DNA from: a bacterium
GTDB lineage: Bacteria; Sumerlaeota; Sumerlaeia; SLMS01; JAHLLQ01
Length of the DNA: 64,000 nt
Direction: 5' to 3'
Assembly (NCBI GenBank): GCA_020444065.1
Contig: JAHLLQ010000003.1
Span: forward strand, 382,979 to 446,978
The position numbers were made by a program, and so were the translations under genes. Shown here piece by piece: positions 16,286-52,056 of this stretch (its first letter is position 1; the number at the start of each line of letters is the position of its first letter). The notes under the pieces are model-generated. The model saw only the letters and a program-made list of their open reading frames with translations. It was not told the origin of the DNA and did not search any database.

Positions 16286-16579
16286 CTCATTTAATTGGAC
16301 TTCCTGTCCGCCCTGCCAGCGCTGCACTTCCCGGCTTTCAAACAACCTGTGAACTCCGGCTTTTTCCGACGAGACAGCGCGATGCTGATCCGTGGCGCGA
16401 TGTCTCGCGGTCCCTCTTTTGATCGGCCCAGGTTCTTGCTCCGTTCTGTCTTGACTTAGATAAGGACCGGGGCAAGAGTCTATACAATCAAGATAAACAT
16501 GGTCTTATATGTCGTGTTTGTTTCTTGGTCGAGCCCCCGGGGGGCACTTTTCGATACCTTGATGGGTTGGGAGGGGGCC

Positions 16580-19500
16580 ATGTTGAGTCTGAAACATATT
16601 TCACTAATTTCATTCGCCTTAGCCTGTTTTGCGAGTGCCCCTGCGCTTCCCCTGCAGGCCCGGCGCGATGCCAAGGTGCCGCCCGACTTCCATCCCGGCA
16701 TGAGCGCTGGCGACCGCCAGTTCCTCTGGGGTTCGGGTCGCGCCGTGTATCCTGATCGGCGCCAGGCACTCCCAGCCAGCCAGATCAACAGCACCTACTT
16801 GCCCAGCATTGTCAGCCAGCGCGAAGCGCCCGTCTGCTACTACATGGCGATGGGCTACTACATTCGCACCTACCAGGAAGCCCGCGAACACGGCTGGGTC
16901 AGACCGGACCCGGAAACCGATCCGGACAAGGTGATCGATGGATTCTTCCTGGCTCATTTCGACTACCTGATTCCTTTCATCCGTACTTTCGGGGCGCCGA
17001 CTTATGCGGCCTCGGATTACGATGAAGCCGCCCAATTCCCGACGCCGGAGTGTTTCGCCGAGGCGCAACTCCATCGTATTGACAGGGTCTGGTATCCCGA
17101 GTTCGCCGGCACGGCGGATGTGATGCCCTTCGTGCGCCAGCAAATTGCCGATGGCGATGTGCTCTATGCGGAGATCGAGGCGCGCCAGAATTTCGACAAC
17201 TACGATGGGGAGACTGGCGATGGTTTCGACAATGGCGTCTTCTATGAATACGCCGGCGTGAGCAATCGCGGTCCGCACGCCATTACGATTGTCGGTTACG
17301 ATGACGACCGACCCTACAATGATAGCGGCACCGCCAAGACAGGCGCCGTCCTCGCCGTCAATTCCTGGGGAAGTTGGGGATGGACGCTGCCAGGTTTCGA
17401 CGACACGAGCGGAGGGTTCATCTGGATCGGTTACGACTTCTTTATCGACTTCGTTTCCGACTCGCTTCTCGTGGTCGAAGACCGCCCCTCCGATCCGTGT
17501 TTGGATTACGCCGTCATCGACTACACGCACGAGAATGCTGACGAACTAATCATGTCGGTCGAAATCGGCGACACGGATATCGGCCCTGACGAGGAGTACG
17601 GCCTGTCGTTGGATCAGGCCTTCGGCCGCCGCCCCGTCAACGGCATTGTACGCGTTCCGATCGATCGCCTGACAGCGCGCGGCGCCGAGACGTTCCGCCT
17701 GACCGGTGTGGACTTGAACCTGCCGCTGATCTACGGGCCCGGCGTGCGCCTTGGGACGATTCGGTCCTTTTCCATCGAGCGGGCAGGCATCGGCACCTGG
17801 ACCAGCGAGGACACGCCGATCTTCACGACGGACTGGAATGCACTGAACCCAGCCGACATGCCGGAACACATTTACGCGCTGGAGATTGGACTCTTCGGGG
17901 AGCGCGAAACAACCAAGCTGGACATTCATCCCGCTGTTCTCGGGACGGGGGATTGTGTGACGGACGTTGGCGACTTCGATAGGGACGGAGACCTGGACAT
18001 CATCGCCCAGTACCCCAACTCGGGCAGCACCTACGCCTTTGGCATTTTCCGCAATCGGGGCGACGGCCGCATGGAGTGGTACGAATCCAACCTGCCCACG
18101 GGGCACGTGACTCTCGCGGATGTGGCCGACTTCAACAACGACGGCTTCCTCGACGTGCTGCTTGGGATCGATGATGCGTTTGGCATCTTCTATCGCGAAC
18201 CGGCCTTCGCCGAGTTCAGCGACAGCGGCTTGCGCTTTCCCGTAGAAGACGATCACCTCGTCGCGCGCGCTGTCGACTGGAACCACGATGGGAACATCGA
18301 TGTCGCTGTGTCGGCACGCATTGAGTACGCCGTTCCCCTTCCCGACAACACGCCGTGGAGTTTCTGGTGGAACAACGGCGACGGGACATTCACCGAATCG
18401 TCGTGGCAGATCGGCGGCGATTACAACCAGCGGCCATTCATGGAATTCGCCGATATGGATCGCGATGGTTGGGAAGACATGGTGATCGCCGTGTCGACCC
18501 CGGGGCGCGTTGATTACGGAATCTACGTCTATTCGTTCGTGGATGAAAATACATTCCCGAACAACATCGCGACCATCTCCGGACTCCACAACGACATTGC
18601 CGGCGTTCAGGTTGCCGATACCAATGGCGACGGTTGGCTGGATGTCATCATCAAGACGTACACAGGAACTCACCGGATCTTCTTGAACGATCCTGGGCTG
18701 AACTTCAGCGAAACCACCAGTAATCTTCAAGACCTCAAGACGCTCGCCTTTGGCGATGTGGATAACGACGGCGTGCCCGATGTGGCCGCCACCGGGAAGT
18801 TCCAGGACGCCGATCACGTCGGCTTGTACCGCAATACGGGAACCCAGGACTACAGCTACCTCACCGGCCTCGATATTGTTCCCTATGTAACAGGAGAAAA
18901 CGACGATCTGGAATCCCCGGATGTCGAGTTGGCGGACTTCGACTCCGATGGGGACTTGGATTTTGTTGCCTTTGGCAAGTATGCCCGTTCTGGCGCTCAG
19001 TGGGACGAGGCCTATATCGGGTTGCATTACTTCGAAAACCACACGGCCGAGCCTTTGCGCTTCAACCGCCCCAACACGCCGCCGACTCGGCCAGAACTCG
19101 CAGTGCGATCTTTCAATTCCGCAACCGGCGAGCTAACAATCGAATGGCCGCAGCCCAGTGACGATATCTCCAATGTCGAGGAACTCGCTTATCGCTATTC
19201 CGTCGGCACTCTTCCCGACTGGGCGAATCTATCCACAGATGCGTTTACGCGCAGCCAGCCGCTCGAGATGCACCCGCTGCCCAATGGCGGAATCTGCACG
19301 GCGACGATTCAGGTGCCAACAAGTCGAGCCTCTTTTGTCCGCGTGCAGGCCCTCGACGATGGCCTGGCCGCCTCGGAATGGAGCGCGCCGCTTTCGGTTT
19401 ATCCACCCAACGCGGCGTATCCCTACGATGTGAATCGCGACCAGTTTGTCGACTCTGCGGACGGCGTGTCCATGGCACTGCTGTCGACTTCCGGCAATCC

Positions 19501-21745
19501 CGACGACATTGCACGCGCGGACCTGAACGCCGATGGCGTGGTTGATGGAGGCGATCGCCTGCTTCTGAATCGCGAGATCACCGGCGCGACGGCTCCCGAT
19601 CCCAATCTGCTGGGAACACTGGACGTCACGCCGGACGATGGCGGCCTACTGGTGACCGAGCAGTTCTCGATCTCCGTCCCCAGCCACACCTTCGATGTTC
19701 CCGTCAGCGTCGATGTCTATCCCGGCCAGGAAGATCCGGCGGTCACCGGTCTCGTACCCGGCTCCGTCGTCGAGCTCAGCGGGATCCCCGACTCTCGCAA
19801 CGGCAGCTACCAGATTATGTTGCCTGTCGGTGCAAACAACCCCGACGAAACCGTCCTGGTTTACGGCCGCGAAACGCTCCCCACTTCAATCTGGGAGCCG
19901 ACACTCAGCTGGCGCATGATCCGTCCGACCTCAATCGATGGTGGGATGTTCGTCTTCGACATTCCGCCCTTCCAGCCCCTTGCTGATCGAAGCCACCGGC
20001 GGAACTCCATCGAAGTGGTCGACGCGTGGTTCGGACTGGCGGATGAGGTTTACCAGATCGAGCGCGAACACTTCATCGTGCAATTCGACTCCTCCATTCC
20101 CACTGCTAGTGTTCTCGAAATGATCACCGCGATGGAGTGGACATGGAATGAACTGACAACGACTTACGGACTGAAGAGTTCCGGCATCTCCGGTAAGGTT
20201 CAGGTTCAATTCCGCGATATCGACGAAGCGGGATTCTACTGTCCGATTCTCGACTACATCGCAATCAACCAGACCAACGTGAACAGCCTCACTCCGCCAA
20301 ACCAGTACAACCAGACAACACTGACGGGCGTCCACGAATTGACCCACCGCTTCACCCGCCAATACTACCGCGCCACCGCCGGTTTGCTGGACTATCGATA
20401 CGATACGGAGTGGCCCGACGAAGCGGCAGCCGTCTGGATGGAATGCCAGTATAACAGCGACTCCGCCGATGGCGCCCGCACCGTGATGGACGAGTCGATG
20501 ATGGTCCCGTTCGAGATCGGCCTGAACGCGGGTCTCGATGGCAAGGAAGCCTACTTCGGCTACGGCATGGCGCCGCTGATGAAGTACTTTGTCGGCACAC
20601 GAGGAAAGACCGATTTCCCCGAGAAGCTGTGGCGATTCATCAGCCTCGACTACAAGACGCTCGATGCGATCAACGCCGCGGCGGCGCAACAGGCTGAGAT
20701 CTGGTGGCACGACTATGTCGGCGGACTTCTGCTCGGAAATCTCTACCCGATCCGGCCCCAAGTGCTCACGAACGGGCTGAAAAAGCGCGAGTTCAATACC
20801 GTCAACATGGGCCCGAGCGAGATCACCGAAGGCCCCGCCGTGCGCTTCGAAGTACCCGAGGTCAAGTACCTGACATCGCCACTTTTCAGTACGCTAATCA
20901 ATGATCTGTTCCTCGATACGGACATGACAATCAGCCATTGCCTGACCGCGCGGATCGGTTATGATGTCGAGTGCTCGACCTTTGCCTATCACCCCAGCAT
21001 CAACAGCGGCGATCCGGATGTTGAACACATCAGCGACCTCGTGGCGATGAATGGCGCCTACAAGCTCGATGTCCCTGTCAGAGCGGAGTGGCTAGCGAAC
21101 TCCGACTGGCGCGTGATGAACGTCGCATCGATGCTGACGGATCCCCAGGGCGCTTCCAATCCGATGTTCATGCACATTGGAATCACTCAGGACAGAAAGT
21201 GGGATGGCCCCAGCGGCCTGACTGTCGAGAACGGCGGCACGTATCAGATCGGTCTGAGTGAAGGCCTCGCGCCAAGCTACAATGTCACTTACTCGGTCGA
21301 TGGCCCGGGACTCGCGCGCATCCGCACGCTTGATTACGGCACGATTGGCAAGGATTTCCTAGCCTGGCTGCTTGGCCAGACGCCGGCCGAATTCGACATC
21401 GAATTCCAGGCCACGCCAGTCAACCTGAGCCGCATTGAATCCACGGACACCGGTTACAAGGTCCACACGGCGGGCGCGATCAAGACCTACCGCTATCGAA
21501 TTTCTTCAACGCAAGTGGATGGTTCCAATACAGACATCGTGGAAGAGCGAAGCGACGGGCGCTTGAACTACATCGTTGAGCCAAACGATGAAATCGTCAG
21601 CATGTCGGTCGAAGTCGTTTACGACATCACGGAGCAAATCTACGACGACAACGACAATCTGCTGGACACGATCGTGCATACCGACGTGTGGACACGCCTG
21701 TCGGGCGTCACCCTGTTCGCCTATCCATTTGTTCTGGAGGATTGA
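16580..21745 (+). CDS. Secreted multidomain protein: papain-like peptidase, FG-GAP repeats, dockerin, HExxH metallopeptidase-like domain
   Basis: 1,721 residues from the ATG at 16580, next to GGGAGGGGG; a signal peptide covers about 1-24. Residues 70-300 form a C1-like cysteine peptidase: Cys86 in VCYYMAMGYY, His233 in GPHAITIVGYDDD and Asn261 in AVNSWGSWGW. Residues about 460-810 hold seven FG-GAP/VCBS calcium motifs (DFDRDGDLDI, DFNNDGFLDV, DVDNDGVPDV and others), expected to form a beta-propeller. A fibronectin-like segment (about 840-945) follows. A type I dockerin-like pair comes next (YDVNRDQFVDSADG, ADLNADGVVDGGD; about 953-1005). A second catalytic region has HELTH at 1252-1256 with WPDEAAAVWM downstream, a gluzincin-type zinc site. 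The C-terminus is beta-rich. Two unrelated peptidase folds in one secreted chain are unusual. Substrate unknown. Confidence 0.8.
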   Translation: MLSLKHISLISFALACFASAPALPLQARRDAKVPPDFHPGMSAGDRQFLWGSGRAVYPDRRQALPASQINSTYLPSIVSQREAPVCYYMAMGYYIRTYQEAREHGWVRPDPETDPDKVIDGFFLAHFDYLIPFIRTFGAPTYAASDYDEAAQFPTPECFAEAQLHRIDRVWYPEFAGTADVMPFVRQQIADGDVLYAEIEARQNFDNYDGETGDGFDNGVFYEYAGVSNRGPHAITIVGYDDDRPYNDSGTAKTGAVLAVNSWGSWGWTLPGFDDTSGGFIWIGYDFFIDFVSDSLLVVEDRPSDPCLDYAVIDYTHENADELIMSVEIGDTDIGPDEEYGLSLDQAFGRRPVNGIVRVPIDRLTARGAETFRLTGVDLNLPLIYGPGVRLGTIRSFSIERAGIGTWTSEDTPIFTTDWNALNPADMPEHIYALEIGLFGERETTKLDIHPAVLGTGDCVTDVGDFDRDGDLDIIAQYPNSGSTYAFGIFRNRGDGRMEWYESNLPTGHVTLADVADFNNDGFLDVLLGIDDAFGIFYREPAFAEFSDSGLRFPVEDDHLVARAVDWNHDGNIDVAVSARIEYAVPLPDNTPWSFWWNNGDGTFTESSWQIGGDYNQRPFMEFADMDRDGWEDMVIAVSTPGRVDYGIYVYSFVDENTFPNNIATISGLHNDIAGVQVADTNGDGWLDVIIKTYTGTHRIFLNDPGLNFSETTSNLQDLKTLAFGDVDNDGVPDVAATGKFQDADHVGLYRNTGTQDYSYLTGLDIVPYVTGENDDLESPDVELADFDSDGDLDFVAFGKYARSGAQWDEAYIGLHYFENHTAEPLRFNRPNTPPTRPELAVRSFNSATGELTIEWPQPSDDISNVEELAYRYSVGTLPDWANLSTDAFTRSQPLEMHPLPNGGICTATIQVPTSRASFVRVQALDDGLAASEWSAPLSVYPPNAAYPYDVNRDQFVDSADGVSMALLSTSGNPDDIARADLNADGVVDGGDRLLLNREITGATAPDPNLLGTLDVTPDDGGLLVTEQFSISVPSHTFDVPVSVDVYPGQEDPAVTGLVPGSVVELSGIPDSRNGSYQIMLPVGANNPDETVLVYGRETLPTSIWEPTLSWRMIRPTSIDGGMFVFDIPPFQPLADRSHRRNSIEVVDAWFGLADEVYQIEREHFIVQFDSSIPTASVLEMITAMEWTWNELTTTYGLKSSGISGKVQVQFRDIDEAGFYCPILDYIAINQTNVNSLTPPNQYNQTTLTGVHELTHRFTRQYYRATAGLLDYRYDTEWPDEAAAVWMECQYNSDSADGARTVMDESMMVPFEIGLNAGLDGKEAYFGYGMAPLMKYFVGTRGKTDFPEKLWRFISLDYKTLDAINAAAAQQAEIWWHDYVGGLLLGNLYPIRPQVLTNGLKKREFNTVNMGPSEITEGPAVRFEVPEVKYLTSPLFSTLINDLFLDTDMTISHCLTARIGYDVECSTFAYHPSINSGDPDVEHISDLVAMNGAYKLDVPVRAEWLANSDWRVMNVASMLTDPQGASNPMFMHIGITQDRKWDGPSGLTVENGGTYQIGLSEGLAPSYNVTYSVDGPGLARIRTLDYGTIGKDFLAWLLGQTPAEFDIEFQATPVNLSRIESTDTGYKVHTAGAIKTYRYRISSTQVDGSNTDIVEERSDGRLNYIVEPNDEIVSMSVEVVYDITEQIYDDNDNLLDTIVHTDVWTRLSGVTLFAYPFVLED

Positions 21746-25501: not shown

Positions 25502-25529
25502 TCTCTGCAGGAAATGGCATTTCTCCCGA

Positions 25530-25562
25530 AGGGGCAGGCGATTCAACGCCTGCCCCTTTTGT
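25530..25562 (+). terminator. Rho-independent terminator of the SAT/APS-kinase gene
   Basis: An 11-bp stem AGGGGCAGGCG/CGCCTGCCCCT with loop attcaa is followed by TTTTGTTATT. The rest of the spacer to 25842 shows no other supported feature. Confidence 0.9.
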
Positions 25563-25842: not shown

Positions 25843-27930
25843 ATGCGGAGCAATCTTTCATCGAAACTCACACCGGCCTTGCTGGCCGCGGGCGCAATGT
25901 TGCTTTCGTCCGCAGTGACAGCCCAGGTCCAGATCAACGGATCCGGCAGCTACGCCGACATCACCACGGCGCTGGCATCGGCCAGTGCTAACGACACCAT
26001 TACTGTAGATGGAAGCACCTATAACGGGGTCACTGAAACGGTGAACATCGCGCTCGCCGGTATTACGCTGGAGGGCATCAACGGCGCTATCGTTCAGAAC
26101 CCGGGAGACGGGGCAGACACGGGAACTGCGGGCACTGGTGCCGTTATTCGCGTCAGCGCCGTGGCAGACGTCACCATTCAGAACCTGAATGTTGTTGTCG
26201 ACGAACCGGAAGCGGGCGGCGGCATTGCCTTTGTCGGCACAGCGGCTCAGTTGGGAACTTGCACGATTACAGGTAACACAATCACGACGACGGGACCATC
26301 CGCCAGTTCATCCGTCAGCGGAATCGCACCGTTCGGCAACGCCGGCTACGGGTCATCCGTCGGCATCAGCATCTACCAGGCCTCCGGCGGAACACCGGTG
26401 AATGCTGTGATTCAGAATAACACGGTTGGCAGCGCGACGAATCCATTCTCGATTTTCGGAATCATTATGGAGCGCAGCACCGGAACGATCAGTGGCAACA
26501 CGACGTACTGCGAGAACTTCTCGTTCATCAACCGCTTCGCGTACGCTCCGGTCAACATCGACAACAACCACTTCTACGGCTACGGCGATGAACGTAACCG
26601 CGGCGCCGTCGTGGAATTGGGCGACGTGCAGACCGGCGGCGACGTGACCTTCACGAACAATACGCTCGAGACGCTGGACAGCGTTTCACAGCGTTCGCCG
26701 CAAGGTTTCATCCCCCGTCGTCTGATGCAGATCAAGAACTGCTACAACTCGACGGAAGTCCAGATTACGGGCAATACGTTCAATGTCCGCAGAGATGACA
26801 CGGTCGCCGCAACGGAAGGCGCTTCAGGCACCGGCCTTGCCATCACGAACGTGCGTCGTGCCTTTGTTGGCAACAACACGTTCAATGCCCTGGAAGATGA
26901 CTGTCTGCTGCTTGAAGTGAACAACAAGATCTACTCGAGCGGCCAGCCCTTCCAGAATGCGGGCAACGAGACCAATCGCCCGCGCATTTATGGCAACACG
27001 TTCAATGCCACCGGCACATCCGGTGTGACGGCGATCTCCTTCCGCGATCACGCCCAGGAGAACGCTGGCAGTGGCGTGAAGATCGAGATTCAGGACATCG
27101 TCTGTGGAAACTCGGCCGATCCGAACAAGTTCGGCGCCGATCTCGGCACCTTCATCGAACTGAGCGACCTAAACACAACGACCGACAACGCGCTCGACCT
27201 CTATGGCAATCAGGCTGCTGAGTCGAACCTCTCGGTTAGCACGGCCATTCCGTTCGCGAAGAACTTCTTCGCTTCGGAGAACCAGTACGACGTCGGCAGT
27301 GGACTGCAGTTCCCCTTCCAGATGGACGGCGCCGGCCTGGCCGCTGTTGAGGCCAAGGTTCAGCACTACACAGACAACAACTTACTCGGCCTCGTCGTCA
27401 TTTCGCGCGATCCGGATGCGGACAATGACGACGTTCCGGACGCGCTTGAAGCCTTGCTCGGCACCGACGGCGTTGCCAGCCGCGACTTCGACGGCGACGG
27501 CATCGAGGACGGCGTCGAGATCCAGATCGGCTCCGACCCGGCAGTCGATGAAGGCCCGGTCGACAGCGATGGCGACGGCCTGCCGGACGGCTTCGATCCG
27601 ACCAACTACGCTCCCGGCGGTGTGATCGGCACCGACAGCGACTACGACGGCGACGGCTTTGCCGATTGGTACGAAGTGCTCTTCGGCACCAACCCGGAAG
27701 ATCCCGCCCAGGTTCCGTTGCTGGGCGACGTGGACAACGCAGTTGCCGGCGTGGACTTCACCGACGGCATCAAGATGCTGCGTGTGTTCCTTGGCCTCGA
27801 TACGCTGAGTGCGCTCGACAACCCTGCACTGTTTGACGTCAACCGCGACGGCGTGAACGACAACGTCGACGGCGTGATCACGATCAACTACGACCTGGGC
27901 AACATCCAAGAACTGCCCTTTGGAAACTGA
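25843..27930 (+). CDS. Secreted beta-helix protein with thrombospondin-type-3 repeats and dockerin-like C-terminus
   Basis: 695 residues. AAAGGAG lies 11 bases before the ATG at 25843. Signal peptide about 1-28 (ends VTAQ). Residues about 30-520 are a right-handed parallel beta-helix, with many short ITGNT/NNTF-type rungs such as IQNNTVG, GNTTYCEN and GNTFNATG, typical of polysaccharide lyase and pectinase-like folds. No catalytic motif could be assigned. Residues about 555-620 carry calcium-binding DPDADNDDVPDAL, DFDGDGIEDGVEI and DSDGDGLPDGFDP repeats. Residues about 627-690 (GDVDNAVAGVDFTDGIKML, FDVNRDGVNDNVDGVI) resemble a two-repeat dockerin. Genes for cohesin-like proteins follow at once, so it is a candidate scaffold ligand. 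Confidence 0.75.
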   Translation: MRSNLSSKLTPALLAAGAMLLSSAVTAQVQINGSGSYADITTALASASANDTITVDGSTYNGVTETVNIALAGITLEGINGAIVQNPGDGADTGTAGTGAVIRVSAVADVTIQNLNVVVDEPEAGGGIAFVGTAAQLGTCTITGNTITTTGPSASSSVSGIAPFGNAGYGSSVGISIYQASGGTPVNAVIQNNTVGSATNPFSIFGIIMERSTGTISGNTTYCENFSFINRFAYAPVNIDNNHFYGYGDERNRGAVVELGDVQTGGDVTFTNNTLETLDSVSQRSPQGFIPRRLMQIKNCYNSTEVQITGNTFNVRRDDTVAATEGASGTGLAITNVRRAFVGNNTFNALEDDCLLLEVNNKIYSSGQPFQNAGNETNRPRIYGNTFNATGTSGVTAISFRDHAQENAGSGVKIEIQDIVCGNSADPNKFGADLGTFIELSDLNTTTDNALDLYGNQAAESNLSVSTAIPFAKNFFASENQYDVGSGLQFPFQMDGAGLAAVEAKVQHYTDNNLLGLVVISRDPDADNDDVPDALEALLGTDGVASRDFDGDGIEDGVEIQIGSDPAVDEGPVDSDGDGLPDGFDPTNYAPGGVIGTDSDYDGDGFADWYEVLFGTNPEDPAQVPLLGDVDNAVAGVDFTDGIKMLRVFLGLDTLSALDNPALFDVNRDGVNDNVDGVITINYDLGNIQELPFGN

Positions 27931-27978
27931 TCGCCAGACGAACCAGGAAACAACAGCGAGAACAAAAAGGAGAAAGTG

Positions 27979-28554
27979 ATGAATCGCATATCAAGCAAGA
28001 TCATGGCGTGCCTGGCGCTCTTTGTCGTGGCGACGGTTTCAACGGCCTTTGCCGGCGCAACGTTGAGCACATCGCTGGTCACTCCGCCCGCCAGTCTGGC
28101 GCCGGGCCAGCAGTTTACCATTCATGTTGCCGTAACGGCAAATGACACCGCCACAACACCCGCGCACGCAGCGCTTCGCTTCCAGTACGACACAGCCGAC
28201 GTCACGTTCATTTCCGCCTCCGGCGATGCGAACGATGGTTGGCTGGGTACGGTGGATGCAGGCGCGATCGGCGCGGAAGAAGTTGTGAGCGGCAGTGTTG
28301 TAACGCGCGACATTCCAACCCTCGGTAACTTCAGCAATACAAGCCTGACTCCGGATGTGATGGATCTCGTGTTCGAGATGACCGCGACGCCGGCTTCGGC
28401 CGTCGACATCACCTTCGAGATGGATCCCGGAGCTGCCAGTCCTCTGATCGACGTAACGGCATCACCCATCACTGTGGATGCAACGACAGACACAGCGACA
28501 CAGGGGTTGTTCCCATACAGTTCGGTCGCCGAATGGCGGCAATTGGACTACTAA
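27979..28554 (+). CDS. Secreted single cohesin-like domain protein
   Basis: 191 residues. AAAAAGGAG precedes the ATG at 27979, and a signal peptide ends at about residue 25 (TAFAGA). The mature part is one cohesin-like beta-sandwich: LAPGQQFTIHVAVTAN, then AALRFQYDTADVTFISASG and VMDLVFEMTA. The order FxVxVxVxxN, YDxxxVxFxxAxG and a late hydrophobic strand is shared with each repeat of the protein at 28669-34038. It lies 48 bases after the dockerin-like beta-helix gene and looks co-transcribed. No cell-surface anchor is visible. Cohesin assignment rests on pattern only. Confidence 0.65.
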   Translation: MNRISSKIMACLALFVVATVSTAFAGATLSTSLVTPPASLAPGQQFTIHVAVTANDTATTPAHAALRFQYDTADVTFISASGDANDGWLGTVDAGAIGAEEVVSGSVVTRDIPTLGNFSNTSLTPDVMDLVFEMTATPASAVDITFEMDPGAASPLIDVTASPITVDATTDTATQGLFPYSSVAEWRQLDY

Positions 28555-28593
28555 CCATGCATGCGCACGACCTGAACATGCTCTAGTTTACCA

Positions 28594-28634
28594 CGGCCAG
28601 GGGATGGGGGAGACAAGTTCTCCGTCCCCTGGCC
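28594..28634 (+). terminator. Hairpin between the single-cohesin and nine-repeat genes
   Basis: CGGCCAGGGGA and TCCCCTGGCCG form an 11-bp stem, with an inner GGAGA/TTCTCC stem. AATTT follows, without a long U-run, so it may be a partial terminator or mRNA stabiliser setting the ratio of the two products. Confidence 0.5.
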
Positions 28635-28668
28635 GAATTTCAGCGACCTAACAAGATCAGGAGAAACT

Positions 28669-31600
28669 ATGTTCTCGAGGAGATATCTCACCCGTTCGGT
28701 TTTGATGCTCTGCCTGGTAATGATGCCGTTGGCAGTGTTTGCGGACGCCGTGATCAAGACACGGGTGGTCGACAACGTGGTCCTCGAAACCGGGAAGGAA
28801 TTCGAAGTCGAGGTCTTTGTCGAGTCGAACACGGGCAATCCGCCAACGGTGTTTGCCTTGCGAGTCAACTACAACAGCGACGCCCTGGAGTGGGTTTCCG
28901 CCACCCAGGGGACTATGGGCGGCCTGATTCTCGGACCCGAGTCGGGCACTGCGCCCGATCTGTATCGCAACGTGCGCGGCATTGGATTCGCCAATACGGA
29001 TCCAACTCCGACGCTGATGCGTGTGAAATTCCGCGCGCTTCAAGCTCCCAATCCACCAGCTATTATCACGGTGATGGACGATTCATCGACTCCGCTGAAC
29101 TTCGCGGATATCAGTAACGCGCCCATCCCGCATACTTTTGACAATTCGTTGACGTCCAGCCTTCCGATCGAGATTTCCGGCTCGGCAACCGTTGCAACGG
29201 AACTCAGCGCTCCGGGCGGCCTCGTGGCCGGCGGACAGTTCGATGTGAAGTTGCTCGTCAACGACAACACGACGCTGCTGGCGCCCGGCTCCGCGGATAT
29301 TCGCGTGACCTGGAACCCGCAGTCGATCCAGTTGCTTTCCGTCAGTGGCGCTGACCTCGGCGCAGTCACGAGCGATACGCTCATGATGCCGAGTCCCAGT
29401 CAGGCTTATCGCAACTTCTCCGCAAGCAATCCAGGAAACCTGGATGCGACACCGGAGTTGATGACGTTGCACTTCCAGGTTCTGGGCTCGCCGTTTGTGC
29501 CATTCTCGATTTCCGCTTCTGCCAACGCGGCAGGCGGGAATCCGCTGGTCAGCACAGGCAGCGACGACATCCCGACGAACTTCGACAACGCACAGACGAC
29601 CGCGCTGAGCATTACCGGCGCGGGCGCTGCGCTGATTCGGACTTCGTTGGCGACGGCTCCGCCGCTTCGCATCGGGGCGGAGTTTGAAGTCTCAGTCGAC
29701 ATCGAGTCCAATGCTTCGGCGCAGATTCCCGGGCGTTCTGCCATACGTCTTGTTTATTCAAGCGACTCGGTGGAGTTCCTGGGCGTTCGCGATGGCGACC
29801 TTGGTGCAGTTGCGGCTGCTCCTCCCGTCAGCCTCGGCGGTGGCGAAATGGCCGTCGACCTCGTGACAGGCGGCAATCCCGGCAATGCGGATGCGACGCC
29901 GCAGATTCTGATGGCGCGCTTCCTGGTGAAGTCGAATCCCTTCCAACCGTTCAGCATCAGCGCTGGTGACAATCCAACTGCGGCCGATCCGTTGGTTGCG
30001 GTCGACCAGACAACGCCGATCAGCCGGAATTACGATTCCTCCTTCACCGGCAGTCTGACTGCGAACGACGTGGGGTTGGCGATGATTGCGACAGGCCTGC
30101 AGAGTGGCGATCCACTGGCGGCCGGCGAAACGCTTTCCATTCCCATCGACGTTGCCAGCAATTCGACTGGCATGGCCCCCGGATCGGCGAACCTGATCGT
30201 GAGTTACGATCCGACGAAGCTCACGTACTTGAACAGCGACAGCGGCGATCTTGGGAAGGTCACGACCACATCGACTCGCAAGGTTCCCGTCGATGGCAAG
30301 GTTTACGTCGAAACGGATGGTAACGATGCCAACACCGACGAGACGCCGAATATCATCCTGATGCGTTTCGAGACGGCGACGCCTTTGCAGGCGCCGTACA
30401 CCATCTCGGTTTCCGGCAATCCGGACGGCGCACCTGCGCTGACCGAAGCGGGCACCGGGAATGGTATTCCACGCGCATACAATTCCAATGCGACAACGAA
30501 CCTCGGAGTCAATCCGACCACCGGAACGGCGATGATCAAAACACAGATCGTTTCGGGCGATACGACGACGCCGGGCGGAACATTCGACGTGCGTGTGTAC
30601 GTCGATTCAAACACGACCGGCATCACGCCGATCGAGGCGGCTCTCGAGGCGGTGTACGACACGTCTTCGGTGAGCCTGCTTAGTGCCACGGCGGGCGATC
30701 TTGGCAATCCGATCGTCGGCGTCACAACCAACATTGGTGGGACGAAGGTCCGTCACCCCATCGCGACCGATGTGAATGCGGGGAACCTCTCGCAGACCCC
30801 GGACGTGTTCACCCTGACATTCGAAGTCCTCAACAACGCGTACTCTCCGTTCTCGATCGAGATGCGCGATGCCACCGGTTCGACGTCTGCACTTGTCGGC
30901 GCCGGCATCGAGGACATTCCAACCCTCTACGATAATTCTGCGACGATCGATTTGCCCGGTCCTCCGACCGGCGGTGCGGTTGTGCAAACCAGCGTTCTTT
31001 CCGGCGATCCGAATGTTGCCGGCGGAACGTTCGACGTAGGCGTTCGCGTTGTCTCGAACGGCTCCGGTGAAATCCCCGTCTCGGCAGCCTTCCGGATCGA
31101 ATACGATGTGGATAGCGTCGAGTTCGTGGGTGCCGCGGCCGGCGACCTCGGTGGGCTGGAAATTGGCCCCGAAGAAGTCGACGGTTCGGACAACTTCCGC
31201 GACATCCTCACGCAAGGCAACGGTGGCAACGCCTCGTTGTTGCCGAACGTGATGACGTTGCGCTTCCGCGTGAAGAACGCACCGTACGCTCCTTATTCGA
31301 TCCATGTCGGATCGGATCCGGATTCCACTGCGCCATTGCTCTCGACCGATCTGTCGACGAGCATTCCGGTGACCTACGACAACGCGCTGACCACCGACTT
31401 CCCAGGACCGCCGTTGCTCGGCAATGCCGTCATCCAGACAACGATTGCTTCCGGCGATCCGACACTGGAAGGCACCGAGTTCGACGTGCTGGTTCACGTC
31501 GCCTCGAATCCCGCGGGCCAGATCCCGATCGCCGCTGCATTCCGGCTTCGCTACAACCTCGATTCCGTCGAGTTCGTCAGCGCATCCGGTGGCGACCTTG

Positions 31601-34038
31601 GCGGCGTCATCGTGGGCGGCGAGGAAGTCATCGGCGGCGGCTTTGTGCAGCGCGATGTTCTGACCGATGGTTCCGGCGGCAACACGATGCTGCTCCCGGA
31701 CGTCATGACGCTGAAGTTCCGAGTGTTGAACCCGGCCGTTTCTCCCTACTCGATTCTGGTGAGCGACGATCCGGCTTCGACTGCGCCGTTGCTTGACGAT
31801 GGGCTTGGCGTGAACATCGACCACGTCTTCGACAACGATGCGACCACCGGCATTCTGACTTCCGGTCAGGCCGGCCAGGCTGTCGTTCGCACCTCGATTC
31901 TCTCCGGCGATCCATCACAACCGGACACCGAGTTCGACGTGCTGGTCGAAGTCTCCGACAATCCGACAACCATGACGCCGCTGGCGGCTGCATTCCGCGT
32001 TCGTTACGATCCGGAAAGCGTCCAGTTTGTTGGCGCGCTGGCGGGCGATCTCGGAGCACTGACCGTTGCCAACGAAGAAGTCGACGGTGGCGACGTCGTG
32101 CGCGATATCAGCACGCAAAGCAACGCCAGCAACACGAACCAGACACTGTCCGTCTTTGTGCTGCGTTTCCGTACAGAGACGTTCCCGCTGTCGCCGTTCT
32201 CGATCCAGATGAGCGACGACCCGGATTCGACGGGACCGCTTCTGGCGCAGGACTTCACCACAAACATTCCGCACCAGTTCGATAACAGTGCGACAATGAA
32301 CCTGATCGCCCAGGCGACCGGCGAAGTGCTTATTCGCTCGTCCGTCCAGAGCGGCGATCCGAACGTCATCGGCGGTAACTTCACGGTTCTCGTCGAGGTG
32401 GCTTCCAACGAAACCGGACTCATCCCGGAATCCTCTGCGTTCCGCATGATCTACGACACCGCGTCGGTCACGTACCTTGGCATCGGTGGCGGAGAACTGG
32501 GCGGCGCGTTGGCCGGCAATGAGGAGACGATCCTCGGGACCACCGTCTTCCGCGATGTTGTGACGGACGGCAGTGCGACGGCGCATGTGATCGCGCCGGA
32601 TGTCTTCACGGCAACTTTCCAGGTGAACGCCGCGCCGATTGCGCCGTTCACGATCCTCTTCCAGGATGATCCGGACAGTTCGCTGCCACTTTTGGCCAGC
32701 GATCTGCAGACCAACATCCCGCACACGTTCGATAACGCCGGTACGACGGATCTCGGCCAGGGCCTGCCCACGCCGACTCCATCTCCAACACCGACGCCGA
32801 CCCCGACGGACACGCCGACGTCTACTCCGACGCCGACACCAAGCCCGACGGATATTCCGACGTCGACACCGACTCCAACACCGACACCGACGATAACGCC
32901 GACGTTCACGCCGACGTTCACGCCGACGCTAACGCCGACCCCGACACCGACGGGCACGCCGGTTGTCTTCACCTTCGCGAATCACCGTCAGGGATGGGAT
33001 CCCTATTCATGGCCGCCGTTCACATCGCCGGTCTTCGACAACACGCCGGGTACGCCTGGTACGTTGGATATGACGATGACTACCAACACGAACCTGGTAG
33101 GCATCTGGGAATCCCCAGCCTTCGAGATCGTCGGAACCGACGCCGTACCTGTCCGCACCGACACGATTCCATTACGTGTCAGCGCCGACGGGACGTTGCC
33201 GATCTTTGCGACGACCTATCGTATCATGACGGATGAGACGGATCTGACGCTCGTTCCGCAGGTTCGTGTCCGCACGACCGCGCAGAACAGCCAACAGGCG
33301 GAAGTCCTGACGATCGAGTCCAACGCCGACGCGGCTTACTCGCCGACACCGGCCGGGGTCGAGTACACGCTCTTCTTCCGTCCGCCGACGGTCAGCCCGA
33401 TCTTCACTCTTGAGTGGGACGTGCTGAACTTCTATCCGTTGGATTCGGCATCGGCCCAACTGATGCTGGACAACGTTGTGATCGAGCAGGTTCCGGAAAC
33501 CATTCTGGATGGTGCGACCTCCGAATTCGCCTATGACTTCGAAGGCAATCAGGATGGCTGGGACTTCTTCTCGATTCCGGAGAGCTTCCCCGCGCCGGGC
33601 TTCGCTTACGACTCGGCGAATGGCCGCCTTGGACTTAGTGTCGCCGACACGTCCGAGTTCCAGTTCGGCTTCTGGGGATCGTCGTTGGATCCGAACAATA
33701 ACCCGACGATCCAGGCGGGTCGTCTCTACTACGCCCTCTTCACTGTGGGGACGGACATCGCGATTGCCGATCAGGTGCCGGAATATCGCCTGCGCCTGAA
33801 CGAATCGCTGTTCCGTGTTTCGCAGTACACCAACGTTGCCTCGACCGGATCGGCAATGAATGTCCCGGCGCCTGGCGCTCCGCGTCAGCACCTGGTCTTC
33901 TTCCCGGCGAACATGGGTGTGGGCCAGAATCTGCTGTCGTCCTTCGACATTCTGGCCAATCCGGCGAGTGACAACCTCGAGATCGGCGGTTCGATTTACC
34001 TGGAAAGCCTGGAGATCTTCTCCGTCCCGGCTCCGTAA
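28669..34038 (+). CDS. Scaffoldin-like protein with nine cohesin-like repeats, Thr-Pro linker and two C-terminal beta-sandwich modules
   Basis: 1,789 residues. AGGAG lies five bases before the ATG; signal peptide about 1-25. Nine modules of about 148 residues begin near 28748, 29179, 29624, 30069, 30521, 30970, 31422, 31877 and 32320. Each opens with AV(I/V)xTxxxSGDP, then FDVxVxVxSN, YDxxSVxFxxAxxGDLG and a closing IPxxFDNxxT. The pattern is that of cohesins, the dockerin-binding modules of cellulosome scaffoldins. A TP-rich linker (residues about 1367-1431; [16 protein letters not shown]) resembles scaffoldin linkers. Two C-terminal modules ([26 protein letters not shown]) look like carbohydrate-binding-type jelly rolls. 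No SLH, sortase or PEP-CTERM anchor is seen. A dockerin-like protein gene lies just upstream. Confidence 0.7.
32769..32959 (+). repeat. Thr-Pro linker microrepeat
   Basis: Tandem ccgac/acaccgac hexamer-type repetition encoding TPTP..TSTP..TFTP. It creates a spurious Gly-Val ORF on the opposite strand. Such repeats can change length by slippage, varying the linker. Confidence 0.85.
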
Positions 34039-34067
34039 ACCGAATCGATCAACCCAATTCCCGTGGC

Positions 34068-34104
34068 GGGCGGCTTCCATTGCGAAGCCGCCCGTCCTCT
34101 TTTG
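34068..34104 (+). terminator. Rho-independent terminator after the scaffoldin-like gene
   Basis: GGGCGGCTTC-cattgc-GAAGCCGCCC followed by gtccTCTTTTG. Confidence 0.85.
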
Positions 34105-34190
34105 TCAGGGGTTCGACTCTTGGTTGCATCGGAACGGGCACTTGGACAACGATCTCGCCGGACTAAAGAACTGGGAAAAGGGAATTCACC

Positions 34191-35222
34191 ATGTATCGTT
34201 CAATCATCGCAGGTCTGTTTCTTTCGGTGGCGTTTCTCGTCGCCTGCGGTGGGGGAGAGAAGGAAGCCGCTGCACAGGAGGTCGTGGTCTACACGGCGCT
34301 CGATCGCGAGTTCTCCGAGCCGATCCTGAAGCAATTCACCGAAGAAACCGGAATCGTCGTCAAACCCGTGTACGACACGGAAGCCGTCAAGACGACGGGC
34401 CTTGTGAATCGGCTGATCGCCGAGAAGGCCCGTCCGACGTGCGACGTGTTCTGGAACAACGAGATTGTGCGTTCGATTCAACTGAAACGCGAAGGTGTGA
34501 CCGAGGCCTATCGTTCTCCGAGCGCCGAGAAGATCCCGCCCGAACTGAAGGACCCAGAGGGACACTGGACGGGATTTGCGACACGCGCTCGGGTGATTTG
34601 CGCGAATACGGAACTGCTGCCCACTGAAGCCGATCGCCCGCAGAATGTCTCCGACCTGATCCGCAAGCAGTGGCAAGGCAAGGCAGCCTTTGCCAAGCCG
34701 CTGTTTGGCACGACGGCCACACACGCCGCCGTCATCTGGGCCGAGCAGGGCGAGGAGGTCTTCCGTGCCTTTTGGAGTACCGCCATGGAGAATGCCGTTA
34801 TGGTGGCCGGCAACGCCCAGGCTCGCGATGCGGCCGCCGATGGCGAATTGCCCTGGTGTCTGACCGATACGGATGACGCCTACGGCGCGCTGCTGGACGG
34901 GAAGCCTGTGGAGATCATTTATCCAGACGACGGGGCCAACGAGGAAGGCATCATTTTGATTCCGAACACGGTCGTCCTGATCAAGAATGCCCCGCACCCG
35001 GAAGCTGCCCGGGCGCTGATCGACTACCTGCTGTCGCCGGAGGTGGAGGCGAAGCTGGCCCAGTCCCGAAGCGCCCAGATCCCCGTCCGGGACGGAATCG
35101 CGCCCCCCGAGGGGCTGAAATCCCTTGAGGGCCGGCACATCCGCGATATCGACTGGGAAGCGGTCGCGGACGCACTGGAGCCTTCCCAGGCGGCGCTGGC
35201 CGAGATGCTTGCCAACCAGTAG
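34191..35222 (+). CDS. Iron(III)-type ABC transporter substrate-binding lipoprotein
   Basis: 343 residues with an AAAAGGGA ribosome site. The lipobox LVAC at residues 16-19 shows it is lipidated. EVVVYTALDREFSEPILKQF, TGIVVKPVYDTEA and DVFWNNEIVRSIQLKREG match the FbpA/FutA-like family 1 solute-binding proteins that deliver ferric iron (some bind other oxyanions or sugars). No permease or ATPase gene is adjacent; the flanks are cohesin-like genes, so it is an orphan here. The metal-ligand tyrosines cannot be assigned with certainty. Confidence 0.8.
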   Translation: MYRSIIAGLFLSVAFLVACGGGEKEAAAQEVVVYTALDREFSEPILKQFTEETGIVVKPVYDTEAVKTTGLVNRLIAEKARPTCDVFWNNEIVRSIQLKREGVTEAYRSPSAEKIPPELKDPEGHWTGFATRARVICANTELLPTEADRPQNVSDLIRKQWQGKAAFAKPLFGTTATHAAVIWAEQGEEVFRAFWSTAMENAVMVAGNAQARDAAADGELPWCLTDTDDAYGALLDGKPVEIIYPDDGANEEGIILIPNTVVLIKNAPHPEAARALIDYLLSPEVEAKLAQSRSAQIPVRDGIAPPEGLKSLEGRHIRDIDWEAVADALEPSQAALAEMLANQ

Positions 35223-35286
35223 CGCCAATCCCGGCGGGCTCTCGGCGGGTCCCTTTTCTGGGCCCACTGCTGACCGGAGGAAGACG

Positions 35287-36648
35287 ATGACGATGAAACA
35301 CGCTCGAATCTGGATTCTCATGCTGGTGGCCGCCTGCGCGCTGACCGCCGGGCCCGCGCTCGCGCAGAAGCAGCCGACCGGCGGTGCGCAAAGAGAGCCC
35401 GTTCAGAAGCAGCCCCAGCAGACGAACAACCGGCAGCAGAGCTCCGGGGCATCGAACACGAACAACAGGCGCCCCAGCAGGCAGCCCCGCACCGGCAGCG
35501 GAGCGCGTCCCGAGGCAGGCGGAAGAACGGGAAGCTCAACCGGCCGTTCTGGCGCGTCCAGCGCAAGCTCTCTCGGCGGCGTTCAGATGGTCAGCAATCC
35601 GGATAATCTCATTCTCCGCCTGACGGCCGCAAATGCGGAAGGCTTCGAGGATGTCGATGCCGTGGAGGGCGGTACCTTCGGGACGGATATCCGGCTGGAC
35701 AATCCGCGTGGCAAGCCCGTCGATTCGATGCGCCTGATTGTCGATTACAACCCGGCATTCATCAGCCCGAAGTCCATCAACGATACACCCCTGAAGGAAT
35801 TCCTGGATGGCGCGCCGAAGGCCACGGTGAATCGCAGCCTGGGGCAGATCTACTACGAGGCGAATTTCAAAGAGCCAATCCCGCCATCGGACGAGCCCAT
35901 TATGTACCTGCGGTGGGAGGCGAAGACTCCGGTCGTCTACACCGCGATTGAATTCGGCAAGAATCGCGAGATCGGCGTCACCGATCTCACGTACCAGAAT
36001 GAATCCGTCCTGGGCGAACCGCACGAGGAAGGCGACGGTACGGTCTCGGTGGGCGTTCGTGTGATTCCGGCGGACCCGGACGAGGCGGCGCTGATGCAGG
36101 AAGAGCCGCAGCTCTACCTTGGCAGTGACGAGCGCGTCGGTGGCGTCCAGATCGCCATCCAGCCGCCGATCGAGACGCCTCAGGTCGGCCAGATCTTCAC
36201 GATGGATATCGTGCTCGACAACAGCACCTACTCCCAGATCGACGGCATCTCGTTCCTCATCCAGTACGATCCGACGACTATCGAAATCCTTGATGCGGAC
36301 CAGGACAACTGGATCACGCTCGGACCGAACATCCTTGATGGGCCGTTCCACGGGGATTTCCCGTTCGACTACCACATGGCAAACACCTTCTACCAGGTTC
36401 GCGGTTTGATCGAGTACCGTGTCGGGACGTCGACGCCAGACGACCTGCTTGGCATCGATGCGCCGATTGCGCGGATCGTGGCCCGCGGTCTAAAGCCCTC
36501 GGCCGGGACTGCCGTGCAGTTCAGCTTCTCCAAGCGCCGCGGCACGCGCACCACCGAGGTCGTTTATATGGGCCAGGACGTTCTGGGCGATCCGGACATC
36601 AGCAACGACGGCGCACGTGGAGCCTTCTTCCGTGTTCTCCCCGAATAA
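35287..36648 (+). CDS. Secreted protein with two cohesin-like domains
   Basis: 453 residues from the ATG at 35287, six bases after GGAGG; signal peptide about 1-27 (ends PALAQ). A low-complexity Gln/Ser/Arg/Gly region (28-98) is followed by domain 1 (about 105-265: GGTFGTDIRLDNPRG, MRLIVDYNPAFISPKSIN) and domain 2 (about 280-450: GQIFTMDIVLDNSTYSQIDG, FLIQYDPTTIEILDADQ). Both have the cohesin-type strand order and the YDP-type strand. They are diverged from the nine-repeat protein. The earlier in-frame start at 35125 lies inside the upstream coding region and is rejected. Probably part of the same secreted protein set. Confidence 0.65.
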   Translation: MTMKHARIWILMLVAACALTAGPALAQKQPTGGAQREPVQKQPQQTNNRQQSSGASNTNNRRPSRQPRTGSGARPEAGGRTGSSTGRSGASSASSLGGVQMVSNPDNLILRLTAANAEGFEDVDAVEGGTFGTDIRLDNPRGKPVDSMRLIVDYNPAFISPKSINDTPLKEFLDGAPKATVNRSLGQIYYEANFKEPIPPSDEPIMYLRWEAKTPVVYTAIEFGKNREIGVTDLTYQNESVLGEPHEEGDGTVSVGVRVIPADPDEAALMQEEPQLYLGSDERVGGVQIAIQPPIETPQVGQIFTMDIVLDNSTYSQIDGISFLIQYDPTTIEILDADQDNWITLGPNILDGPFHGDFPFDYHMANTFYQVRGLIEYRVGTSTPDDLLGIDAPIARIVARGLKPSAGTAVQFSFSKRRGTRTTEVVYMGQDVLGDPDISNDGARGAFFRVLPE

Positions 36649-50058: not shown

Positions 50059-51933
50059 ATGCGGCTTGAATTGGGCGATGTGACTTGCCTCGGGCGCGCC
50101 GAGGAGATGGATTTGGTATTGCCCGATGCCGCCGTCTCTCGCGAGCACGCGCGCATTCGCCGACGCAATCTAAGCTGGATTCTTGAGGACGCCGGAAGCC
50201 GCCACGGCACGTTCGTAAATACGGACCGCGTCGATGGCCAGCGCCCGCTGCTGAAGAACGACGTCATTCAAGTCGGGCACTCGCTGTTTCTGTTCGACTC
50301 CGATTTCGACATCCAGAACGCGGATTTCTCCGACCGGTCCGTGTACTTCGCTCAGCCTCACGATGAGACGGTCGAGGTGGCGCCGGTTGCCGTCCTGTCG
50401 CGTACCGAGGTGGGCGGTCCCGAGCCGACCGACGCGGGGATGGATTTCGTCGTTCAGCTCGGCGAACTGTTCGACTCCGCGCGCGTCAGTTTTGCAGATT
50501 CGCTGAACCATGCGTGCGAGCGCCTGGCGCAGTTGTTCCGCACGGATCAGTTGGTTCTGCTGCTGTGGGATACGGCGGCGCGGCGGCTGCGCGTTTCGGT
50601 CGCGATCTCGCGCGACGAGCGCATCCTTGCCGACTCCGCGGTGATTCAGAAGACTTTCCACGAGCGCAAAGCGATGCTGATCAGCGACCGGCCGGACTTG
50701 GCGGCGCCGCCTTCACCGGATGCGCCGAAGGCTCCGGCGAGTCGATCGATCCTCGCGGCGCCCCTGGAAATCGACGACACGGCGATTGGCGCGCTGTACC
50801 TCGAGCGCCAGGAGTTGGATGCCTACTCGCTGCTGGATTTGCGGAATGCTCGCGCCGTTGCAAAGCTGATGGCCGTCTTCATCGAGTCGCGCCAGAAGGC
50901 CGAGGCGCTTGCGCTGCGGATACGCTACGCCGGGCCGGAGTCCGACATTGTCGGCACGAGCGCGCCACTGAGGAGAGCTCTGGAGACGGTTGCGAAGCTG
51001 GCGCCTACCCCCGCCACGGTTCTGCTGGTGGGGGAGACGGGCACAGGCAAGGAGTTGTTTGCGCGGCGGATTCACGACTTGTCGCCGGCCGGCCGCGCGG
51101 GTGCGCCGTACATCGCAGTGAACTGTTCGGCGATTCCGGAATCGCTGTTCGAGTCGCAGTTGTTCGGTCACGAAAAAGGATCCTTCACCGGCGCGATTCG
51201 GATGCAGCGCGGGCTGATCGAGCAGGCGAACGGCGGCACGCTCTTCTTGGATGAGATCGGCGAGATGTCGCTGGCGATGCAGCCGAAGCTGCTGCGTTTC
51301 CTGCAGGAACGTGTGTTCACTCGTGTGGGTGGGACGAAACCCATTCGCGCGGATGTGCGACTGGTGACGGCGACCAACCGGGATCTTCTGGAGGAAGTGC
51401 GCGCTGGGCGTTTCCGCGAGGACCTCTATCATCGAGTCGCCGTGATCCCGATTGAGCTGCCACCGCTCAGAGAGCGCCGTGCCGATGTTGCGCCCCTGGC
51501 CGACCATTTTCTTCAGCTTCACGCCAAGAAACTCGGCAAGCAAATCGTCGGCATCAGCGCCGAGGGGATCATCTCGTTAGAGAAATACGACTGGCCGGGG
51601 AACATCCGAGAGCTCTCCAATTGCATCGAGCGAGCGGTCCTTCTTTGCGATGATAAGGTGGTTCTCCCCAGGCATCTAAGCCTTCCGTTGGCGGGCCGGA
51701 TGGTATCCGCGTCGCCTTCGCAGGGCCCAGGCGCGGCGCCGACGCCGCTTCCCATCACGCCATCTCGGCCGGCGGCCGGTTCGGACTGGCCCCTGTCTCG
51801 CGTAGAAGCGGAACACATCGCCCGGGTCCTGGAGGCGAATGGCCACAACCAGGTGCAGGCAGCGGAGGTGCTGGGGATCCACCGAAATACGCTGCGCAAG
51901 AAGATCCGGGAATACGATCTGAAGTCAGAATGA
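50059..51933 (+). CDS. FHA-domain sigma-54-dependent transcriptional activator
   Basis: 624 residues from the ATG at 50059. The FHA fold seems to begin upstream (IRGPLTGM); the best ribosome site, AGGAGG at 50005-50010, points to an ATC at 50020, so the true start is uncertain. FHA shows GRAEEMDLVLPD, VSREHARI and GSRHGTFVN (about 1-95), binding phosphothreonine. A GAF-like region spans about 140-290. The AAA+ domain (about 305-540) has Walker A GETGTGKE, the sigma-54 loop GSFTGA (usual GAFTGA has Ala) and Walker B GGTLFLDEIGE. A Fis-type HTH (NQVQAAEVLGIHRNTLRKKI) ends the protein. It activates sigma-54 promoters after a phosphorylation signal. The LarA-like gene follows. Confidence 0.9.
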   Translation: MRLELGDVTCLGRAEEMDLVLPDAAVSREHARIRRRNLSWILEDAGSRHGTFVNTDRVDGQRPLLKNDVIQVGHSLFLFDSDFDIQNADFSDRSVYFAQPHDETVEVAPVAVLSRTEVGGPEPTDAGMDFVVQLGELFDSARVSFADSLNHACERLAQLFRTDQLVLLLWDTAARRLRVSVAISRDERILADSAVIQKTFHERKAMLISDRPDLAAPPSPDAPKAPASRSILAAPLEIDDTAIGALYLERQELDAYSLLDLRNARAVAKLMAVFIESRQKAEALALRIRYAGPESDIVGTSAPLRRALETVAKLAPTPATVLLVGETGTGKELFARRIHDLSPAGRAGAPYIAVNCSAIPESLFESQLFGHEKGSFTGAIRMQRGLIEQANGGTLFLDEIGEMSLAMQPKLLRFLQERVFTRVGGTKPIRADVRLVTATNRDLLEEVRAGRFREDLYHRVAVIPIELPPLRERRADVAPLADHFLQLHAKKLGKQIVGISAEGIISLEKYDWPGNIRELSNCIERAVLLCDDKVVLPRHLSLPLAGRMVSASPSQGPGAAPTPLPITPSRPAAGSDWPLSRVEAEHIARVLEANGHNQVQAAEVLGIHRNTLRKKIREYDLKSE

Positions 51934-52056
51934 CGGCGGATTGCCGGGAAGCCCGGTCCCGGCGGGGAATGAAAAACTCCCTGCTCTCCGGCGTTGACGA
52001 CCCCTCTTTGTTCCCCTAAGAACCAAGGATGTTCTCATGCGACCGGAGTGCCGCTC

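Follow-up and report, generated by a model that had tools for sequence, protein, structure and literature searches.

A cohesin-dockerin gene cassette of Sumerlaeota predicted to build a non-cellulosomal extracellular scaffold

The window analysed here is a 64,000-nucleotide stretch of a Sumerlaeota genome (GCA_020444065.1; 5.2 Mb in 14 contigs, 97% complete), positions 382979-446978 of contig JAHLLQ010000003.1 (C3), and our subject is a three-gene cohesin-dockerin cassette at window positions 25843-34038. The genes lie on the + strand, as do all window features given below, and encode in order a 695-residue dockerin-bearing protein (25843..27930), a 191-residue single-cohesin protein (27979..28554) and a 1789-residue nine-cohesin scaffoldin (28669..34038), with intergenic gaps of 48 and 114 bp; all three products are predicted to be secreted, on the basis of signal peptides read by eye. 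An intrinsic-terminator-like hairpin at 25528..25559 (13-bp stem, 9 G-C) separates the cassette from a sulfate adenylyltransferase/APS kinase gene, and another at 34065..34096 (13-bp stem, 10 G-C), 27 bp past the scaffoldin stop, marks its end; the intergenic gaps within the cassette hold no terminator-like hairpin. Judged by these signals, the three genes, set between two strong terminators, make up a single unit. An initial annotation had described a single-cohesin-like gene and a nine-repeat scaffoldin-like gene with a Thr/Pro linker and terminal jelly rolls, and all of these elements could be located.

The repeats of the scaffoldin form an array at 28744..32763: R1 (28744-29181), R2 (29182-29625), R3 (29626-30075), R4 (30076-30525), R5 (30526-30972), R6 (30973-31422), R7 (31423-31875), R8 (31876-32319) and R9 (32320-32763). 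They are 146-151 residues long, share 26-53% pairwise identity and abut directly, with 1-3 residues between modules. The Pfam cohesin profile PF00963 gives 56 bits for the whole protein (cut-off 24.1), and four stretches pass singly. Because a profile built from the ten window modules returned chance matches only against PDB chain sequences, a fold search was required. The AlphaFold2 model of R7, on which the fold assignment of the array is based and whose alignment held window repeats only, has a predicted local distance difference test (pLDDT) score of 90.3 and shows the nine-stranded jelly roll of cohesins; in the fold search of PDB, ranks 1-36 are all cohesins (best E 6.7e-6), or 36 of the 37 matches at E <= 0.001, and they span clostridial type I modules to a non-cellulosomal Archaeoglobus module. 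Profile and model together identify the ~148-residue repeats as cohesins, in agreement with the initial annotation; another beta-sandwich family was tested for and not found.

The single-cohesin protein is 20-34% identical to R1-R9 and scores 166 bits with a profile made from the repeats and the protein itself; its orthologues in other cassettes reach 36-113 bits by the same kind of profile. Alone, it has no PF00963 match in a Pfam scan, and neither the orthologous single-cohesin proteins nor the two-cohesin protein of a relative has a cohesin match in Pfam. By sequence, then, the window modules are a divergent type of cohesin, here called A1 after a profile made from window sequences only. 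The genome (G000) holds this type together with canonical Pfam cohesins, and a profile-profile comparison of the window repeats with a canonical cohesin from another of its loci (L060) gave a low probability. At L059, two genes that resemble each other and lie about 10 kb from one another (G000:C1:40661-42322 and 50581-52527) contain both kinds, and have the C-terminal end GWYFW.

Upstream, the 695-residue protein comprises a signal peptide, a PbH1-like repeat region, TSP3 repeats (the best-scoring TSP3_bac repeat at 27484..27540, upstream of the dockerin) and a C-terminal dockerin region at 27634..27924 that takes in the last TSP3 repeat and paired F-hand loops. The region has one canonical calcium loop rather than two, the second (DVNRDGVNDNVD), and the Pfam dockerin profile PF00404 has no match in the protein at E <= 1. 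Its C-terminus shares 30-43% identity with seven others that are syntenic or of the same type, counterpart dockerins in three related genomes (G008, G011 and G023) exceed the PF00404 cut-off, and a joint profile of the window dockerin and its syntenic homologues retrieves cellulosomal dockerins from PDB (best E 2e-11). We conclude from these sequence relationships that the C-terminus is a divergent type I dockerin, adjoining TSP3 repeats and missed by Pfam; of the initial annotation's dockerin call, the F-hand pair and the homology hold and the Pfam match fails. Its description of the same protein as a beta-helix is not borne out, since there is no beta-helix match in Pfam or PDB, and what speaks for it is the pattern of the repeats together with a weak match to a beta-helix-like homologue, at the N-terminus of the latter. 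Because PF00963 and PF00404 were run genome-wide, and the fold is consistent with the synteny, the cohesin and dockerin signal at this locus can be taken to exceed chance.

Six further genomes of the class show the cassette neighbourhood as well. In four of them (L054, L055, L056 and L057) dockerin, single-cohesin and multi-cohesin genes stand together on one strand: G008 (L057) has the order of the window, G011 (L055) has single cohesin, dockerin and multi-cohesin, G023 (L056) has two dockerins before the single-cohesin and multi-cohesin genes, and in G010 (L054) a dockerin cut short by the contig edge is followed by single-cohesin, multi-cohesin and second dockerin genes. A fifth genome (G001, L053) has single-cohesin and multi-cohesin genes at a contig end, and a dockerin gene lies directly upstream of a two-cohesin gene both in G016 (L109) and at a second site in the window's own genome (L063). 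When the scaffoldin repeats of the window and G010 are compared, nine of nine find their best match at the same position (58% identity on the diagonal, 36% off it); the nine-module array is therefore old, and its modules have retained distinct identities.

Past R9, the scaffoldin continues with a Thr/Pro-rich linker (32764..32958) and two jelly-roll modules (32959..33495 and 33517..34035). The second was modelled, and it resembles CBM16 and CBM4, families of carbohydrate-binding module (CBM), by fold only; since model confidence is low (pLDDT 68), these matches are merely indicative, and polysaccharide binding by the jelly rolls is plausible. A Pfam scan of the scaffoldin found no S-layer homology (SLH) domain, sortase signal, type II cohesin-dockerin or CBM3, and no X2 module was found. 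The single-cohesin protein ends in the tail SSVAEWRQLDY (28519..28551), an end of [ST]VxDW type that is shared by the single cohesins of four other genomes and present in five of six cassettes; it is possibly a surface-retention, sorting or anchoring signal. Many secreted proteins of the class have a short C-terminal tail with a Trp three to six residues from the end, in the forms [ST]VxDWxxLD, GSQGWYFW, EGWILH, VEEWWVVK and SGWMIK (28519-28551 and loci L053, L054, L055, L056, L057, L059, L060, L067, L069, L091 and L113), which possibly represents an unnamed sorting or anchoring signal of the class.

We think it probable that the products of the trio at 25843-34038 build an extracellular cohesin-dockerin scaffold, a peptidase, adhesin and starch complex as opposed to a cellulosome. 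The initial annotation had proposed that the lineage assembles an extracellular complex of its own; fold, homology, cassette, co-occurrence and adjacency make this the best reading, and binding itself we infer from the genomic association of the two partners. Of the 39 genomes of the class, 7 have the A1 cohesin type. The cassette dockerin type (A3), searched at E <= 1e-10 with a profile made from own-genome sequences only (A6), is present in the same seven genomes and one more, that is, in 7/7 genomes with A1 cohesins versus 1/32 without (Fisher p = 5e-7, an optimistic value, as is the next, because the compared genomes share ancestry). Same-family or same-order relatives that lack one type also lack the other. 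In the exception, G024, the dockerin gene lies directly upstream of a divergent single-cohesin gene (L115; 20.7 bits in Pfam, below cut-off). Dockerins of the type lie within 5 kb of 10 of the 23 cohesin loci, where 0.75 are expected (p 8e-9), a test that reuses the loci from which the system first came to notice. Taken as whole families, cohesins are widespread (33/41 relatives), and so are dockerins (30/41); the association is specific to the two types. In one protein, L061, an A1 cohesin and an A3-type dockerin even share a single polypeptide.

Besides the shared ancestry and the reused loci, several other points weigh against the proposal. In the window's own genome, four of the seven cohesin loci have no A3-type dockerin inside 5 kb. 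Most A1-type cohesins have a low Pfam score or none, and because of this their dockerin-binding face may differ. Loop 1 of the window dockerin is degenerate (GDVDNAVAGVDFTDG), being one residue too long and without the DxNxDG pattern; with loop 2 intact, the dockerin would therefore, if it binds, perhaps do so in a single orientation only. The idea that the Trp tail is an anchor, too, derives from a sequence pattern.

Some of these points would fit a cohesin-fold surface filament, in which the nine modules serve as stalk or adhesin rod for the display of the jelly rolls, the dockerin-like region is a calcium-stabilised TSP3 end cap, and there is no binding between the modules and this region. 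The degenerate loop suits such an arrangement, as do the placing of the jelly rolls at one end of the scaffoldin, the A1-type cohesin proteins (several) that lack a Pfam cohesin match, and the abutting of modules 1-3 residues apart; in many clostridial scaffoldins, unlike here, the cohesin modules are spaced. Yet a filament does not predict the class-wide co-occurrence of the two types, nor their repeated adjacency, including the single polypeptide that carries both, and dockerins of the same type sit on many unrelated proteins. We therefore regard the filament as rather unlikely.

In the extracellular scaffold that we favour, each of the nine near-linkerless cohesins would accept one dockerin, and the Thr/Pro stalk and the two carbohydrate-binding-like jelly rolls would attach the array to a glycan surface, either substrate or cell envelope. 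The 191-residue, one-socket cohesin would probably be kept at the cell surface by its conserved C-terminal W tail. The 695-residue protein would be the resident client, its TSP3-dockerin end plugging into cassette cohesins with calcium, and ~18 other TSP3-dockerin proteins (subtilase, C39-like, M8, FG-GAP and other propellers, GH57/CBM25) may be further clients. By plugging into the scaffoldin or the one-socket protein, such proteins would bring peptidases and binding proteins together in an assembly attached to the surface or to the substrate. More tentatively, and at somewhat less than even odds, the cassette may be a portable, non-cellulosic system, patchy across the class, in which a new cohesin type, a TSP3-coupled dockerin type, a new sorting tail and a glycan-binding linkerless scaffoldin together assemble extracellular peptidases and surface-binding proteins.

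The candidate clients were counted by profile searches and in examined genome stretches. A3-type dockerins occur at 24 places in the window's own genome, 16 of them at E < 1e-16 and scoring 64-121 bits with the cassette dockerin profile; by this measure the genome has about 20 further dockerins of the cassette kind, a search for which the initial annotation had called. They are found on extracellular peptidases, namely a subtilase (S8) with FG-GAP repeats (L099), C39-like/DUF7901 proteins (L094 and L095) and an M8/matrixin-like protein (L096), and also on FG-GAP and SBBP propeller proteins (L091, L092 and L100), on a three-cohesin protein that ELNAV-type proteins (see below) adjoin (L060), and on a GH57 protein of ~4000 residues (L061; G000:C5:222001-233737), which has a C-terminal dockerin, one A1-type cohesin and, in the same chain, seven CBM25 and five CBM53 stretches. 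Some carriers have no recognised domains. Among the A3-type proteins scanned there is no dockerin-bearing cellulase or hemicellulase, the sole glycoside hydrolase (GH) over cut-off being the GH57 of L061, and the cargo is therefore not cellulosome-like. A true cellulosome of the clostridial kind, degrading polysaccharide with cellulases that go unrecognised, could claim the nine-cohesin scaffoldin, the carbohydrate-binding-like modules, the roughly 20 dockerins and the one starch protein with GH57, CBM25/53, cohesin and dockerin; the remaining scanned dockerin proteins, however, are peptidases, propellers or unknowns, and the scaffoldin has no CBM3 or SLH match, which leaves this idea highly improbable. 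From the 'cellulosome-like cohesin/dockerin cluster' of the initial annotation we thus keep cohesins, dockerin and scaffoldin and drop the cellulosomal cargo.

A second EF-hand C-terminal repeat type, which we call ELNAV after its motif 'ELNAVxLxYR', is found at 18 places in the same genome (e.g. L060, L064, L065 and L107). Its carriers, which were scanned in part for domains, include an S8 peptidase and a protein with Endonuclease I and lamin-tail domains, among others; lamin-tail domains are on ELNAV-type proteins and on none in the cassette. ELNAV-type proteins frequently adjoin cohesin genes, and the type may be a second dockerin specificity, with canonical cohesins as its partners. One could imagine several specificities coexisting (A3, ELNAV and other type I dockerins; A1 and canonical Pfam cohesins), such that the window dockerin and the window cohesins are not natural partners and these neighbours are co-regulated and pair elsewhere. 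Two dockerin-like EF-hand types and two cohesin kinds do share one genome, and L060 combines canonical cohesins with an A3-type dockerin beside ELNAV-type proteins. It is nevertheless A1 cohesins and A3/A6 dockerins that form the pair that co-occurs and adjoins, and we judge a mismatch of partners improbable.

Three neighbouring genes had been drawn into the cluster by the initial annotation. Because of the terminators at 25528 and 34065, the genes at 34191 and 35287 most likely belong to another unit, and neither is among the genes with which the cassette recurs. The first (34191..35222) does encode a solute-binding, lipoprotein-type protein, of the SBP_bac_6 family; iron as its ligand is not confirmed, the nearest NCBIfam models being for 2-aminoethylphosphonate binding, below cut-off. 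The second (35287..36648) encodes a secreted two-domain protein of cohesin fold whose N-terminal stretch is rich in Gln and Ser; one half reaches PF00963 at 28.5 bits. We rejected this gene as a member of the system: it belongs to the core genes of the class (37/39 genomes, usually two paralogues each), lies beyond the terminator and outside the recurring cassette, and is not found beside cohesin cassettes. The third, nominated as a dockerin client at 16580-21745, is an open reading frame at 16499..21745 for a papain-like (weak) and FG-GAP protein. Its dockerin reaches PF00404 (25.3 bits) and lies in mid-protein (residues 976-1027 of 1748); with the cassette dockerin profile it scores 22 bits and is of another type, which makes the protein doubtful as the main client. 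A paralogue with papain-like and FG-GAP domains and an internal dockerin-like module (L062:2859-7904) adjoins a one-cohesin gene; the 16499-21745 dockerin may therefore belong to another specificity.

The closest published ideas are the planctosome and the complex of Candidatus Stygibacter. The planctosome is a hypothetical cohesin/dockerin system of Nemodlikiaceae (Planctomycetes), whose proposed cargo is extracellular peptidases and not cellulases, and is, like ours, a prediction from sequence (PMC6461901). TSP3 repeats and lamin-tail domains occur in its partner proteins, and here, too, there are lamin tails, on ELNAV-type proteins; its anchor and adaptor have one cohesin each, and the part of its description on which we draw mentions neither a nine-cohesin scaffoldin nor a dockerin/single/multi-cohesin operon (PMC6461901). 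For Ca. Stygibacter (Cloacimonadota), a cellulosome-like complex was predicted in which a large non-catalytic protein has tandem cohesins and carbohydrate-binding modules, and dockerins are on S8/S53 and C25 peptidases, GH57 and GH18; that scaffold is attached via a conserved C-terminal domain (PMC8542988), whereas in the window scaffoldin no such domain is seen and the conserved W-tail is on the single cohesin instead.

With the clostridial cellulosome (type I scaffoldin, e.g. CipA) the window system has in common the folds, a multi-cohesin scaffoldin (nine cohesins, where at least two are expected), carbohydrate-binding modules and dockerin-bearing enzymes. It differs in that no dockerin-bearing plant-cell-wall hydrolases, CBM3, X2 or SLH were found, in that the cohesins abut, and in that their subfamily is mostly under Pfam detection; it has the cellulosome plan but fails the defining cargo test. 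The mucinolysome (Limousia; PMC12997984) and the amylosome (Ruminococcus bromii) likewise adapt the cellulosome plan to non-cellulose substrates; they are Bacillota systems based on carbohydrate-active enzymes, whereas here peptidases and surface-binding proteins predominate. ANME archaea, too, have cohesin and dockerin proteins in large numbers (PMC9012536). In a 2024 profile survey of annotated genes, most multi-cohesin systems came from Acetivibrio, Ruminococcus, Ruminiclostridium and Clostridium (PMC11557425); cohesins like those of the window would largely escape a Pfam-based survey.

A compact gene set of large scaffoldin, client and one-socket cohesin thus recurs in an uncultured lineage, with one cohesin type associated genome-wide with one dockerin type, and the claim of cohesin-dockerin binding is therefore directly testable with a few small proteins. 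If it is true, the lineage would offer an orthogonal cohesin-dockerin pair, and would use the scaffold plan to organise protein-degrading and surface-binding proteins instead of cellulases.

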